Under the pieces are notes generated by a model. The model was not told the origin of the DNA. It saw only the letters and a list, made by a program, of their open reading frames with translations, and ran no database searches. A stretch of 41,300 nt of DNA from Halovenus rubra (GTDB lineage Archaea > Halobacteriota > Halobacteria > Halobacteriales > Haloarculaceae): the NCBI RefSeq assembly GCF_026586665.1, contig NZ_JAODIY010000044.1, positions 1 through 41,300 of the forward strand. The letters are read 5' to 3'. This document shows positions 35,094 through 39,090 of this stretch, piece by piece (positions within the stretch are counted from its first letter, which is position 1; each line of letters opens with the position of its first letter). The translations under genes were made by a program, and so were the position numbers.

Positions 35094-35108
35094 ACACTGT
35101 CTAGTTTA
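35094..35108. repeat. IS6 terminal inverted repeat, left
   Basis: ACACTGTCTAGTTTA matches the right terminus (ACACAGTCTAGTTAA when reversed) at 13 of 15 positions. Confidence 0.7.
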
Positions 35109-35550
35109 GAACCTCGTCAGCTGGCGTTCGATCATCGAGGGATTGGTGCGGTCTGAGGCGGTTGTAGTAATGCGCAAATATTGCAATCCATTGGCGAACG
35201 CTCCGCCGACTGCCCACCCACGAAGTATGAAAACGGTCGAGCCGCATTTTGAGTGTGTGAAACCATTTTTCGATGAGGTTTCGGTCGGTATAGTCAACCC
35301 GACCGTTCAATCTTAATCGTACAAGGGCAGTCCGATAGCCGAACTGATCGACGAGAAACGTCGCATTCGAGAGATCGTGTTTTTCCTGCAGTCCAGACAG
35401 GAACGCAGCCGCCGGATCCGTGCCATGGCGTCCGAACAACGCCACGTCCAAGATGAGTTTTGTGTCGATGTCTATTGCAGCGTACAACCAAGACCACTCG
35501 CCGTTGATTTTGACAGCGGTTTCGTCAACTGCGACCCGCGACGGCTGCGC

Positions 35551-35606
35551 CGTCCTCAGAAATCGGATATTTCTGATGGGCTGCGGGAGAGCAAAGCTCT
35601 CCCGAA
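35551..35606 (-). mobile_element. 56-bp double-hairpin insertion A (PATE/MITE-like)
   Basis: Hairpin 1 is CAGAAAT/ATTTCTG (35557-35563 with 35569-35575). Hairpin 2 is CGGGAGAGC/GCTCTCCCG (35584-35592 with 35596-35604, loop AAA). On the minus strand the element follows GACG in the target and itself ends in GGACG. It shares length, ends and two-hairpin layout with insertion B but not its stem sequences. The pattern fits a small palindromic element moved by an IS200/IS605-type transposase. Confidence 0.65.
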
Positions 35607-35759
35607 CGTCGGCGGGTCAGGAACGCTGTCAGACAGCCGATATACCCACTGCCAGACCGCTTGGTGAGAGCGTTCAACGCCTAATTCCGCGAGAACCGTT
35701 GTTGTCTCTCTGAGTGAACAACCGGGCGCATGAAGCCGGACGGCGAACGCCCTGATGGG

Positions 35760-35816
35760 CGTCCCCAGAAGCCACGGGCTTCTGGTGTGCGAACGAGACG
35801 CGAAGCGTCTCGTCAA
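35760..35816 (-). mobile_element. 57-bp double-hairpin insertion B (PATE/MITE-like)
   Basis: Hairpin 1 is CCAGAAGCC/GGCTTCTGG (35765-35773 with 35777-35785, loop ACG). Hairpin 2 is ACGAGACGC/GCGTCTCGT (35793-35801 with 35805-35813, loop GAA). On the minus strand it follows GACG and ends in GGACG, as insertion A does. Both begin CGTCC on the plus strand and continue into a CAGAA stem. It is in frame and adds 19 codons. Confidence 0.65.
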
Positions 35817-35934
35817 CGTCGCCGTCCGTTCACGCTCCCAAGTTTCTTCTAGATCCGCCGCAAAGCACTCACTGAGTAGGTCTACGAGCATCTGAACCAA
35901 CCAACTCAATGACCTGCTCACTTCTCAAACTGAC

Positions 35935-35949
35935 TTAACTAGACTGTGT
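35935..35949. repeat. IS6 terminal inverted repeat, right
   Basis: TTAACTAGACTGTGT is the imperfect inverse of the left terminus at 35094-35108. Confidence 0.7.
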
Positions 35950-36010
35950 CATGATATCTTCTCTTTTATCAGTTATATATAAATAAAGAAGAGTGATTTA
36001 AACAACAATA
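35950..36010 (-). promoter_or_regulatory. A/T-rich promoter cut by the IS6 element
   Basis: On the minus strand a TATA-like TTTATATATAA (about 35973-35984) is followed about 25 nt later by ATG (35952-35950), and the IS begins directly after that ATG. This looks like a leaderless promoter whose gene was displaced by the IS and which now reads into the element. Confidence 0.45.
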
Positions 36011-36774: not shown

Positions 36775-37314
36775 TTACGCCCTTTGATGTATTGTCCTCC
36801 CGGGAAAAATGAGGCGGAATATAAATCGAGTAGATAGTTCGGATCCTTCCTCAGCGGCCCACGCGTATACCGGGCTTGGCCCACCAAATGGACTTGGCTC
36901 TCCATGCTGTTCCACACGCTCAAATAGCTCAAGAGCTTGGCCGTACGCATCGTCAGCTCCTTCGATGTCAGCAATCATCCTGAAATCCCCAATGTATTCG
37001 TATCCAAGCCCCGTCCATCCGTCATGTTTGACTTGCCGTTCGGGAAGCCGTCCATTCAGTACATCCTCAATCATCAGGACTGCCTGCTCGCTTCGATTGA
37101 TACAACGCTTTTCTGCCTCAGCTAGCCGATAGCAAACGGCTGCGTATCGGAGTTCATCAACTGCTACCCAGAAGTGCCACTTGTCAAACGCCTTGGCAGA
37201 AAGAGCATAGTATGCTGTACGCGTATACCAGTCACCGGCCTGCTCTGACGCGGCGTCTGACCTAGCTTGCTCCGCTTTGGCCCTTATTTCTCGGCGATGG
37301 CTGGGTTCGTACAT
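36775..37314 (-). CDS. Immunity-like protein, family B copy 2, C-terminally truncated
   Basis: A 179-residue all-helical protein, paralogous to the 221-residue protein at 37380: both share YYALSAKAF/YYGLSRACF, ELRYAAVCYR/KLRLAAVCYR, INRSEQAVLMIEDV, WTGLGYEYIGDFRMIA and PVYAWA. The repeating helices resemble TPR-like repeats. After STRFIFRLI the homology stops and the protein ends FPGRTIHQRA, about 45 residues earlier than its paralogue, exactly where the orphan toxin domain begins. I infer that a toxin-immunity cassette replaced its 3' end. It may still be translated from the ATG at 37314. Confidence 0.6.
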   Translation of the reverse strand: MYEPSHRREIRAKAEQARSDAASEQAGDWYTRTAYYALSAKAFDKWHFWVAVDELRYAAVCYRLAEAEKRCINRSEQAVLMIEDVLNGRLPERQVKHDGWTGLGYEYIGDFRMIADIEGADDAYGQALELFERVEQHGEPSPFGGPSPVYAWAAEEGSELSTRFIFRLIFPGRTIHQRA

Positions 37315-37379
37315 TGGTAATAATCACATTCTGTCTTTCTTTCCTCTTCTACAATTCGTGTACGTATTTACTATTGCAG

Positions 37380-38045
37380 TCACTCAGATTCGTCTGGTGG
37401 AGCCAGTACATCGTCACTCCATTCGAGCGTTTCAGATTTATCCAATAAAGATAGTAATTCAGCTATATATTCATGTCGATATTCTATTCGATATGTGAGT
37501 GACAGACTTCGAAGTGCTGTAAAGGAATCCGAATCTATTTTCCAACCTACAGCGTCAATAAGATACAGCAGAAAATTGGTCGAGAAGTGGAATCCATCTT
37601 CACCAGCCCAAGCGTAGACCGGATCTGGTGCGCCGGCCTGTTCTACACGCTTATACAATTTCATTGCAGTTTGGTAGGCCTCGTTGGCGTCTTTTCGATT
37701 CGCAATCATACGAAAATCGCCAATATATTCGTGGGCAAGACCAGTCCAAGCATCACGTTTGGTCTTATTTTCAGGGAGGTGATTATCAATTACCTCGTTT
37801 ATCATTAATTCAGACTGTTGACTACGATTCGTACACCTAGAGTCCTCTCCCGACATTCTGTAACATACTGCGGCGAGACGAAGTTTATCAATGCCAATCC
37901 AAAGACCTCGGTGATGAAAACAAGCTCTTGAGAGTCCATAATATCCAACACGACTATAATAATCTGCTGCTGAAACTAATTCTCCTGATTGGCGATATTC
38001 ATCTGCCTTATCTAATAATTCAGAATAGTCGTCGTGCTCTTTCAT
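37380..38045 (-). CDS. Immunity-like protein, family B copy 1
   Basis: A 221-residue predicted all-helical protein. I chose the ATG at 38045 (MKEHDDYSELL), two bases after the stop of the upstream toxin-like frame; a TTG at 38054 would overlap it. Helix pairs such as SAADYYSRVGYYGLSRACF, KLRLAAVCYRMSG and MINEVIDNHLPE suggest a TPR-like array. The close spacing to the toxin fragment makes it the likely cognate antidote. It is the complete version of the family whose truncated copy lies at 36775. No enzyme motif is seen. Confidence 0.65.
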   Translation of the reverse strand: MKEHDDYSELLDKADEYRQSGELVSAADYYSRVGYYGLSRACFHHRGLWIGIDKLRLAAVCYRMSGEDSRCTNRSQQSELMINEVIDNHLPENKTKRDAWTGLAHEYIGDFRMIANRKDANEAYQTAMKLYKRVEQAGAPDPVYAWAGEDGFHFSTNFLLYLIDAVGWKIDSDSFTALRSLSLTYRIEYRHEYIAELLSLLDKSETLEWSDDVLAPPDESE

Positions 38046-38047
38046 GG

Positions 38048-39090
38048 TTAACAATCGTATTCAGTATGTCCTCGTTCTTCAAGTTCCTCTTCAGCATCTT
38101 GTCCACTATCGAAGCTTTTCTCTCCATCTTTAAGTAGCGATGTCCTCACTCCCCACGGAGCAAACGGGTAATCTGGGCTAGTCCGTACAATGTGCCAAAC
38201 TCCGTTCGAGGCTTGGCTAATGTAGTACCGAAGCGTTCCGTCAGTCCAGACTTTGCCATTGAACGGGTTTTTGAGTGCGTCTCTGATATCATTTTTATCG
38301 ATGCCTTGCTTGTATGGATGGTCGTTTTCAGATTGTTCTGGGATATACACCTTTTGTCCACAGGTATCTTCAACCGTCTCGCCAGAAGACGCGGTAGCTA
38401 TGGTCCCGCCAATAATTTCGAGGATGGTCTCCTCGCCGTCGGTAACACTGTCACCGATGATATACTGCACTTCGCCATCCTTGGTGACGACCCTGTCTGG
38501 ATTGTCGAGAATGCTCTCGATTTCTGCAACCGTCAGCCCAGTCGTCGCCTCGATGTACTCCAGACCAAACCCACGGGTGTACTCTGTCCCATCGACAGTG
38601 GTTGTTTCGTAGACTGCACCTGCGGGAAGAGTAATCTCCTCGCCGTTCACCTCGTACTTCGCTTCGATGCTGGAGGCAGGGATCTCGTAGGAGATTTCCT
38701 CCCTGACAACCTCGTCCTCTATTTCCGCTTCCAGTGCTGCAACGGAACCAAATAGTAACCCACCTGCCAGGATTCCACCTAGTGTCGAGACAGGATCCGG
38801 TGATGTTGAACCGAGTGTTCCACCAATCTTCGAACCCTCTGCTGCGGCACTTGCGAAGGCACCGGCATAGACAGTCAGATCCGCCGAATCACCCGTGACA
38901 TCATACTCGATGCGGGTAAATCCGCCGTGTTCGCCTACTGCTTCGGCGATTATAATATCGGGTTCGTCGTTAGGTAGTACTACGTTATAGGTAATGTCAC
39001 TTGGAGAGTCTTCCGCTTTCAGGGTTTTGTTCTCTCACGTATCGGTATCGAAGAATGGAATCCAGTTCCTCTCTATGAATATGTTCTATT
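38048..39090 (-). pseudogene. Toxin remnant: hydrophobic pre-toxin segment plus two BECR-like domains
   Basis: The frame is open from 39034 to the stop at 38048 (about 328 codons), with an in-frame TGA at 39035-39037 and coding-like sequence (RNWIPFFDTDT) just before it. The first start codon is a GTG at 38650, inside the protein. Order: beta-rich ITYNVVLPNDEPDIIIAEAV; Ala-rich AGAFASAAAEG; glycine-rich hydrophobic TLGGILAGGLLFGSVAALEA, a possible membrane segment; then two similar units, AEIESILDNPDRVV-TKDGEVQYII and NDIRDALKNPFNGKVWTDG-LRYYI. The last unit ends WHIVRTSPDYPFAPWG plus an acidic tail. Probably a decayed polymorphic toxin; the immunity-like gene follows after two bases. Confidence 0.6.

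Follow-up and report, generated by a model that had tools for sequence, protein, structure and literature searches.

The window, a stretch of 41,300 nucleotides of Halovenus rubra DNA, contains a degenerate IS6-family insertion sequence on the minus strand (35095-35954), which is bounded by the imperfect inverted repeats of approximately 15 bp CACTGTCTAGTTTAG and CTTAACTAGACTGTG and carries two short inserts, here called e1 and e2. The two ORFs flanking e1 are both recognized by the NCBIfam profile NF033587 (transpos_IS6), over profile positions 9-58 and 86-201. The N-terminal part of the transposase (profile 9-58, E 2.1e-11) is encoded by a 121-aa ORF (35556-35921, minus strand), which reads through e2 in frame and has its stop codon inside e1. 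The catalytic part is encoded by an ORF of 128 aa, the longest with an ATG, GTG, or TTG start (35101-35487, minus strand; rve_3, E 1.6e-7; transpos_IS6, E 7.8e-25). Elsewhere in the window, two neighboring minus-strand ORFs of 179 and 224 aa (36775-38054) look like mutual paralogs and lie in a stretch of low G+C content (46%).

Element e1 (35553-35608, plus strand; TCCTCAGAAATCGGATATTTCTGATGGGCTGCGGGAGAGCAAAGCTCTCCCGAACG) is 56 bp long, has a spacer of the GGGCTGC type, and shifts the frame of the transposase. It follows the target dinucleotide CG (35551-35552, plus strand), which is present in empty IS6 copies, and reads CG/TCC TCAGAAATC GGA TATTTCTGA TGGGCTGC GGGAGAGC AAA GCTCTCCC GAACG/, slashes marking the boundaries. 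On the plus strand, hairpin 1, TCAGAAATC-GGA-TATTTCTGA (35556-35576), forms eight of nine pairs, the one adjoining the loop being a C:T mismatch, and is followed by the spacer TGGGCTGC (35577-35584), hairpin 2, GGGAGAGC-AAA-GCTCTCCC (35585-35603), and the 3' tail GAACG (35604-35608). Element e2 (35762-35818, plus strand; TCCCCAGAAGCCACGGGCTTCTGGTGTGCGAACGAGACGCGAAGCGTCTCGTCAACG) is 57 bp long, has a spacer of the GTGCGA type, and follows a target CG (35760-35761, plus strand) placed by the empty sites and the target consensus. Its order is CG/TCC CCAGAAGCC ACG GGCTTCTGG TGTGCGA ACGAGACGC GAA GCGTCTCGT CAACG/, with hairpin 1, CCAGAAGCC-ACG-GGCTTCTGG, at 35765-35785, the spacer TGTGCGA at 35786-35792, hairpin 2, ACGAGACGC-GAA-GCGTCTCGT, at 35793-35813, and the tail CAACG at 35814-35818, all on the plus strand. 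The hairpins were assigned from the sequence and folding, the spacers from the sequence, and the tails from the sequence and the end consensus. Folded as single-stranded DNA, e1 and e2 each form two adjacent hairpins (z = -5.0 to -5.6 on either strand, none of 200 shuffles being as good).

The earlier note on this DNA had described two inserts of 56-57 bp in one transposase gene, the removal of which restores its reading, and had called for empty sites in other IS6 copies. Both inserts lie where it placed them, and empty sites are present for both. When the flanks of each insert are joined, they align gap-free to uninterrupted IS6 copies (locus L223; 84% identity for e1, 90% for e2), so that the segments are insertions and not normal IS6 sequence, and taking them out does restore the gene. 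Two further statements held in part. The common layout is real, both inserts reading TCC-hairpin-spacer-hairpin-AACG after CG, but the spacers differ by one base (7 versus 8 nt) and the stems by one pair; and only e1 breaks the reading frame, e2 being open, in frame, and without a stop codon.

Both inserts belong to a very widespread and apparently undescribed haloarchaeal family of tiny mobile elements. The plan of the whole element is 5'-TCC-hairpin 1-spacer (6-8 nt)-hairpin 2-NAACG-3', located after CG, with a length of about 50-60 bp, and the plan shared by e1 and e2 is far beyond chance. No description of such a two-hairpin element was found in the openly readable article texts searched. 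The covariance model R2 was built from nine copies including e2 but not e1; it matches the training member e2 with E 2e-23 (35760-35820) and e1 with E 2e-10 (35551-35610). These two, together with C48:183074 and C3:3344, are the four good R2 matches in the same genome. The copy G000:C3:3344-3400 (locus L039) occupies an IS6-type site that is also filled in loci L035, L148, and L204, and the copy G000:C48:183074-183134 (locus L037) lies in a different context.

The dispersal in related genomes expected by the earlier note was observed. In 18 genomes of the genus, short matches of a DNA search are limited to the insert segments, and about 100 R2 matches occur in the genus at E <= 0.01, including weaker related classes and some antisense matches. 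At E <= 1e-8, R2 has a match in 121 of 145 haloarchaeal genomes and in 50 of 51 genera. In a sample of 197 genomes of the phylum, 37 have a match, all of them within the haloarchaeal order, and none lies outside it. A pattern scan with CGTCCYCAGNNNNCNNNGNNNNCTGRTGNGC, which fixes the first hairpin and the rim only, found at least 118 stretches in 84,980 species, nearly all haloarchaeal, and among the matches listed nearly all continue with a second hairpin and then AACG, features that the pattern does not require. The few bacterial and viral matches are chance hits that lack the second half. Since the three matches in viral contigs are each without a second hairpin and the phage records contain no match to the pattern, viruses are not obvious carriers. 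In the plasmid collection, copies were found in 53 records, those organisms that are named being haloarchaea, and in 29 of the 30 records listed the match overlaps no annotated feature. Most copies come from searches imposing CGTC, and the invariance of the CG and of the 5' TC is therefore partly by construction; R2 matches obtained free of this constraint still mostly start with CGTC.

The hairpins are maintained by compensatory change, and the combination of conserved structure and variable stem sequence described in the earlier note is real. Among 142 distinct copies, 97.7% of the stem cells are standard pairs, two-sided changes occur at 17 of the 18 stem pairs, and the two-sided cells number 431, where shuffles give 92 +/- 18 and slid controls 24-54. 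These counts are inflated by the fitting of the alignment to the covariance model; even so, given so large an excess and the slid controls, there is little doubt that the conservation of pairing is real. The loops have three bases, and the loop-adjoining pair is almost always C-G. Loops of the form GNA or its complement TNC make up 59% of the element loops, compared with 42% among the remaining triloop hairpins of this DNA and 12% of random cNNNg; in view of the 42%, a preference specific to the elements was rejected. The vocabulary of the stems is limited, and within the GTGC subtype the types of hairpin 1 and hairpin 2 are not independent of each other (Fisher p = 0.001). At one site across genomes, the stem arms are 94% identical and the flanks 82%, which excludes fast stem change at a single site; the variation thus lies between lineages and sites and involves no fast process. 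Hairpin 2 directly follows all 191 hairpin-1 copies, intact, worn, or truncated, the 16 copies that failed the hairpin-2 test having worn or truncated second stems. An Rfam scan of the IS6 region gave no match at E up to 1.

The mobility of the family is well supported. Within the haloarchaeal DNA examined, the joined flanks were matched elsewhere for 138 of 196 copies, mostly without gaps, and under a stricter test an ungapped empty site was found for 75 of 139 class-A copies. Beyond the CG there is no duplication at the empty sites, in agreement with the proposal that these segments insert in the manner of palindromic elements, leaving the target unduplicated. Furthermore, identical elements (0 differences in 56 bp) are found at unrelated sites in different genomes. 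Since copies that share a site among genomes have often been inherited, copy counts do not equal event counts.

The target consensus over 49 independent sites is RNCG/YCG, where the CG was a condition of the search; the remaining preferences are A or G at -4 (42 sites), C or T at +1 (43), C at +2 (39), and G at +3 (31). A fixed tetranucleotide GACG, suggested before as the flank, does not survive this comparison: the invariant part is CG with a weak flanking preference, and the occurrence of GACG at both sites of the window is partly a coincidence. Read on the minus strand, the element is CGRCG/TTN-hairpin 2-spacer-hairpin 1-GGACG/, and its 3' end resembles the target. The minus-strand end GGACG given in the earlier note holds, and the target on that strand tends to CGRCG. 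Such a target-like 3' end would correspond to the logic of IS200/IS605 elements. Complementarity between the element ends is limited to CGT and ACG.

The right end of the element supplies a new CG, and hence units can stack. In one genome (G024; loci L286, L287, and L296), head-to-tail arrays contain 2-4 units, each 49-57 bp long and with differing stems, and each array junction reads AACG/TCC. Haloferax mediterranei pHME132 and H. larsenii have two units in tandem at the e2 site of the IS6 gene, the first of the e1 type and the second, immediately after it, of the e2 type. Elsewhere the same site contains an e1-type unit alone (L200, L225) or an e2-type unit alone (the window, L180), or is empty (L223, L010).

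Copies prefer IS605/TnpB and IS6 sequences. Among 92 ORFs around the sites, 14 encode TnpB and five encode IS6 transposases; the other families listed are single cases or cross-hits of TnpB proteins, with one Pfam family occurring twice. One recurrent site, GATACAGCG/CC, lies at the foot of the palindrome at the left end of TnpA/TnpB elements, and another is the 3' end of tnpB, AATCAACG/CCTGTGGAGAC; further ones lie in the arms of IS605 terminal palindromes and at several positions of IS6 genes. The inserts listed for the tnpB 3' (C-terminal) site measure 57 or 60 bp, and nearly all of them are open in frame. A general in-frame rule is unsupported over all sites, although it holds at TnpB coding sites.

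Other double hairpins were seen in the haloarchaeal DNA examined. The terminal palindrome CCTCGGGGT/TGACCCCGAGG of probable IS1341-type elements (L029, L033, L073, L074, L090, L091, L094-L097, and L106-L108) harbors a second class of about 50-54 bp, CGTACGGAAATC...GATTTCCGTGATGACGAGACGC...GCGTCTCGAACCA, with boundaries unlike those of the window family. A third class is an in-frame double hairpin in Y1 transposase genes between PK and YR (PKSGGTEGPADLAEQGSAQYR versus PKYR; TnpA ORFs of L244, L261, and L262), the gene being still open in L244 and L261. Finally, genome G112 (loci L267-L285) contains a dispersed repeat of roughly 200 bp with two different double hairpins at fixed places, at one of which the copies within the genome have unrelated stems.

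The closest relatives of the family described in the literature searched are the CGTC-tagged REPs of bacteria and the PATEs and small mobile repeats (SMRs) of Haloquadratum, but the family does not fully agree with the definition of any class. The CGTC-tagged REPs, known from five bacterial phyla and including RPE-4 and RPE-6 of Rickettsia and dRS3 of Neisseria, are single hairpins of 20-40 bp with loops of 4-5 nt, two A-T pairs at the start of the stem, and CCA as the tail, which mostly form head-head dimers with partners 1-100 bp apart and have no known transposase (Di Nocera et al. 2013, PMC3733652). Like them, the haloarchaeal elements are tiny paired palindromes with CGTC at one end beside an 8-9-bp stem, have variable stems, occur also inside genes, and lack a known transposase. 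In contrast, they are archaeal, their stems start with YCAG, the loops have 3 nt, the tail is AACG, and the spacer is 6-8 nt; the CG of the tag is already present in the empty site, and the two hairpins form an obligate unit, the second following the first in all 191 copies.

PATEs, the palindrome-associated transposable elements of Haloquadratum, are tied to IS605-type terminal sequences and have 20-50 bp of variable sequence outside the palindromes (PMC3119063). The family shares with them a non-coding content, palindromes near both ends, heterogeneity, the haloarchaeal hosts, and the lack of both target duplication and terminal inverted repeats; unlike in PATEs, only 3-5 nt separate the hairpins from the element ends, and the DNA examined yielded no IS605 parent that shares these ends. 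SMR-A elements, about 110 bp long, have prominent terminal inverted repeats, are usually >95% alike, and prefer IS605-type elements and PATEs, their mobilization having been called enigmatic (PMC3119063). The similarity to SMR-A is in insertion, without duplication, at the foot or in the arms of near-terminal IS605 palindromes, whereas the present elements have 50-60 bp, internal hairpins, and variable sequences. Identity with the SMR-A of about 110 bp is also unsupported by the Haloquadratum loci examined, which contain no near-identical repeat of that length. None of the published PATE or SMR classes matched. Nor are the elements ordinary MITEs, since they have neither the terminal inverted repeats of a known transposon nor a target duplication.

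With the ends of IS200/IS605 elements and the REP/RAYT system the family shares hairpin-marked ends and a target-like element 3' end, and with IS200/IS605-mobilized elements, insertion 3' of a short target, on a fixed strand and without duplication. It differs in that no cognate TnpA was found, no hairpin is bulged, and the stems vary far more than those of a single IS family. The IS200/IS605 system combines hairpin ends, a fixed target strand, the absence of duplication, and a target-like 3' end, and for this reason a Y1 enzyme acting in trans is the most likely mover. We consider it probable, with moderate confidence, that e1 and e2 are copies of a non-autonomous pan-haloarchaeal element of ~50-60 bp that inserts next to CG, and that a Y1 HUH transposase moves it in trans while it is folded as a single strand.

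In the proposed mechanism, a Y1 HUH transposase of the IS200/IS605 TnpA type, supplied in trans, would excise and join the element in its folded, single-stranded form. The enzyme would recognize the two hairpins and the conserved linkers and cut beside target-like ends (on the minus strand, CGRCG/ in the target and GGACG/ at the element 3' end). Recognition of shape and short tags would leave the stems free to drift as long as pairing is kept. An insert with a length that is a multiple of three would survive in open TnpB genes, and other lengths, as in e1, would break the host gene.

Several observations weigh against an IS200/IS605 TnpA, which the earlier note had proposed. No gene-bearing element with these ends exists among the 191 hairpin-1 copies of the haloarchaeal DNA examined, none was found near TnpA genes, and the TnpA-bearing elements inspected have other ends. 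The Y1 transposase (PF01797) is present in 90 of the 145 genomes of the order; by a hand count from listings, it occurs in 8 of the 20 listed element-free genomes and in about 78-82 of the 121 element-bearing ones, which makes the link between Y1 and the elements weak. Approximately one-third of the element-bearing genomes have no detectable Y1 transposase, and some (G085, G045, G035, and G019) combine many elements with its absence. The hairpins at the ends of IS608 and ISDra2 carry a bulge, whereas those of the window family are perfect, which also counts against a Y1 enzyme.

A broader proposal, which we regard as possible but doubtful, is a shape-defined class of mobile DNA across the archaeal order, consisting of two C-G-closed triloop hairpins with short linkers and moved by an enzyme that is not yet known, such that any sequence folding in this way could move and units would stack like cassettes. 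The CGTC-tagged REPs of bacteria would then be distant counterparts of this class.

The main rival of a Y1 transposase is site-specific recombination across the CG core by a tyrosine, serine, or IS110/IS1111-type DEDD recombinase, acting on folded DNA or on double-stranded circles. It would account for the CG at both junctions, the asymmetric target, the fixed orientation, and the head-to-tail arrays of different units. Integron attC sites recombine in folded form, and the kept shape with changing sequence is attC-like. However, the elements have no conserved inverted core-binding arms beyond the hairpins, target information outside the CG is weak, and no recombinase gene is tied to the copies; we consider this explanation unlikely.

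It appears even less likely that the elements are old IS200/IS605-type elements that lost their cores, so that the left and right end hairpins became fused as in terminal-only PATEs, and that they are moved, or merely carried, by parent enzymes. Terminal-only PATEs of 52 bp, which may be mobile, are known in Haloquadratum (PMC3119063), and the copies described here concentrate in IS605-type elements. But the described core deletions leave one palindrome and not two different ones, the 191 copies include no full-length element with these ends, and the boundaries are unlike those of the TnpA elements inspected.

Selected RNA structures, such as terminators, omega-RNA stems, or processing sites, inherited with the host elements without any transposition, are a very improbable explanation. 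Many copies do lie at few recurrent sites of TnpB elements, including the tnpB 3' end, which is the place of omega-RNA production, and the stems at one site are conserved. This explanation is contradicted by the exact empty sites and by identical elements at unrelated sites; the copies occupy 49-62 distinct sites in both orientations relative to genes, including IS6 genes and chromosomal spacers, and Rfam is silent at E up to 1. The last alternative, that the segments are ordinary internal sequence of the IS6 branch found in the window, could be suggested by inserts at the same two sites in six IS6 loci (L129, L158, L196, L200, L223, and L225), but is refuted by IS6 copies uninterrupted at both sites, by a site that holds an e1-type unit, an e2-type unit, or both, and by the location of most copies outside IS6.

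The spread of palindromic repeats that lack a dedicated transposase was left open in the work on the bacterial CGTC-tagged REPs (PMC3733652) and likewise in that on the Haloquadratum small mobile repeats (PMC3119063). The family described here makes this question testable, since it offers many copies, exact boundaries with empty sites, a target consensus, and culturable hosts, among them Haloferax mediterranei and Haloarcula. The many paired changes that it has accumulated in nature reveal the features that matter in the folded strand, and the genes of TnpB transposons tolerate repeated in-frame insertions of its hairpins.
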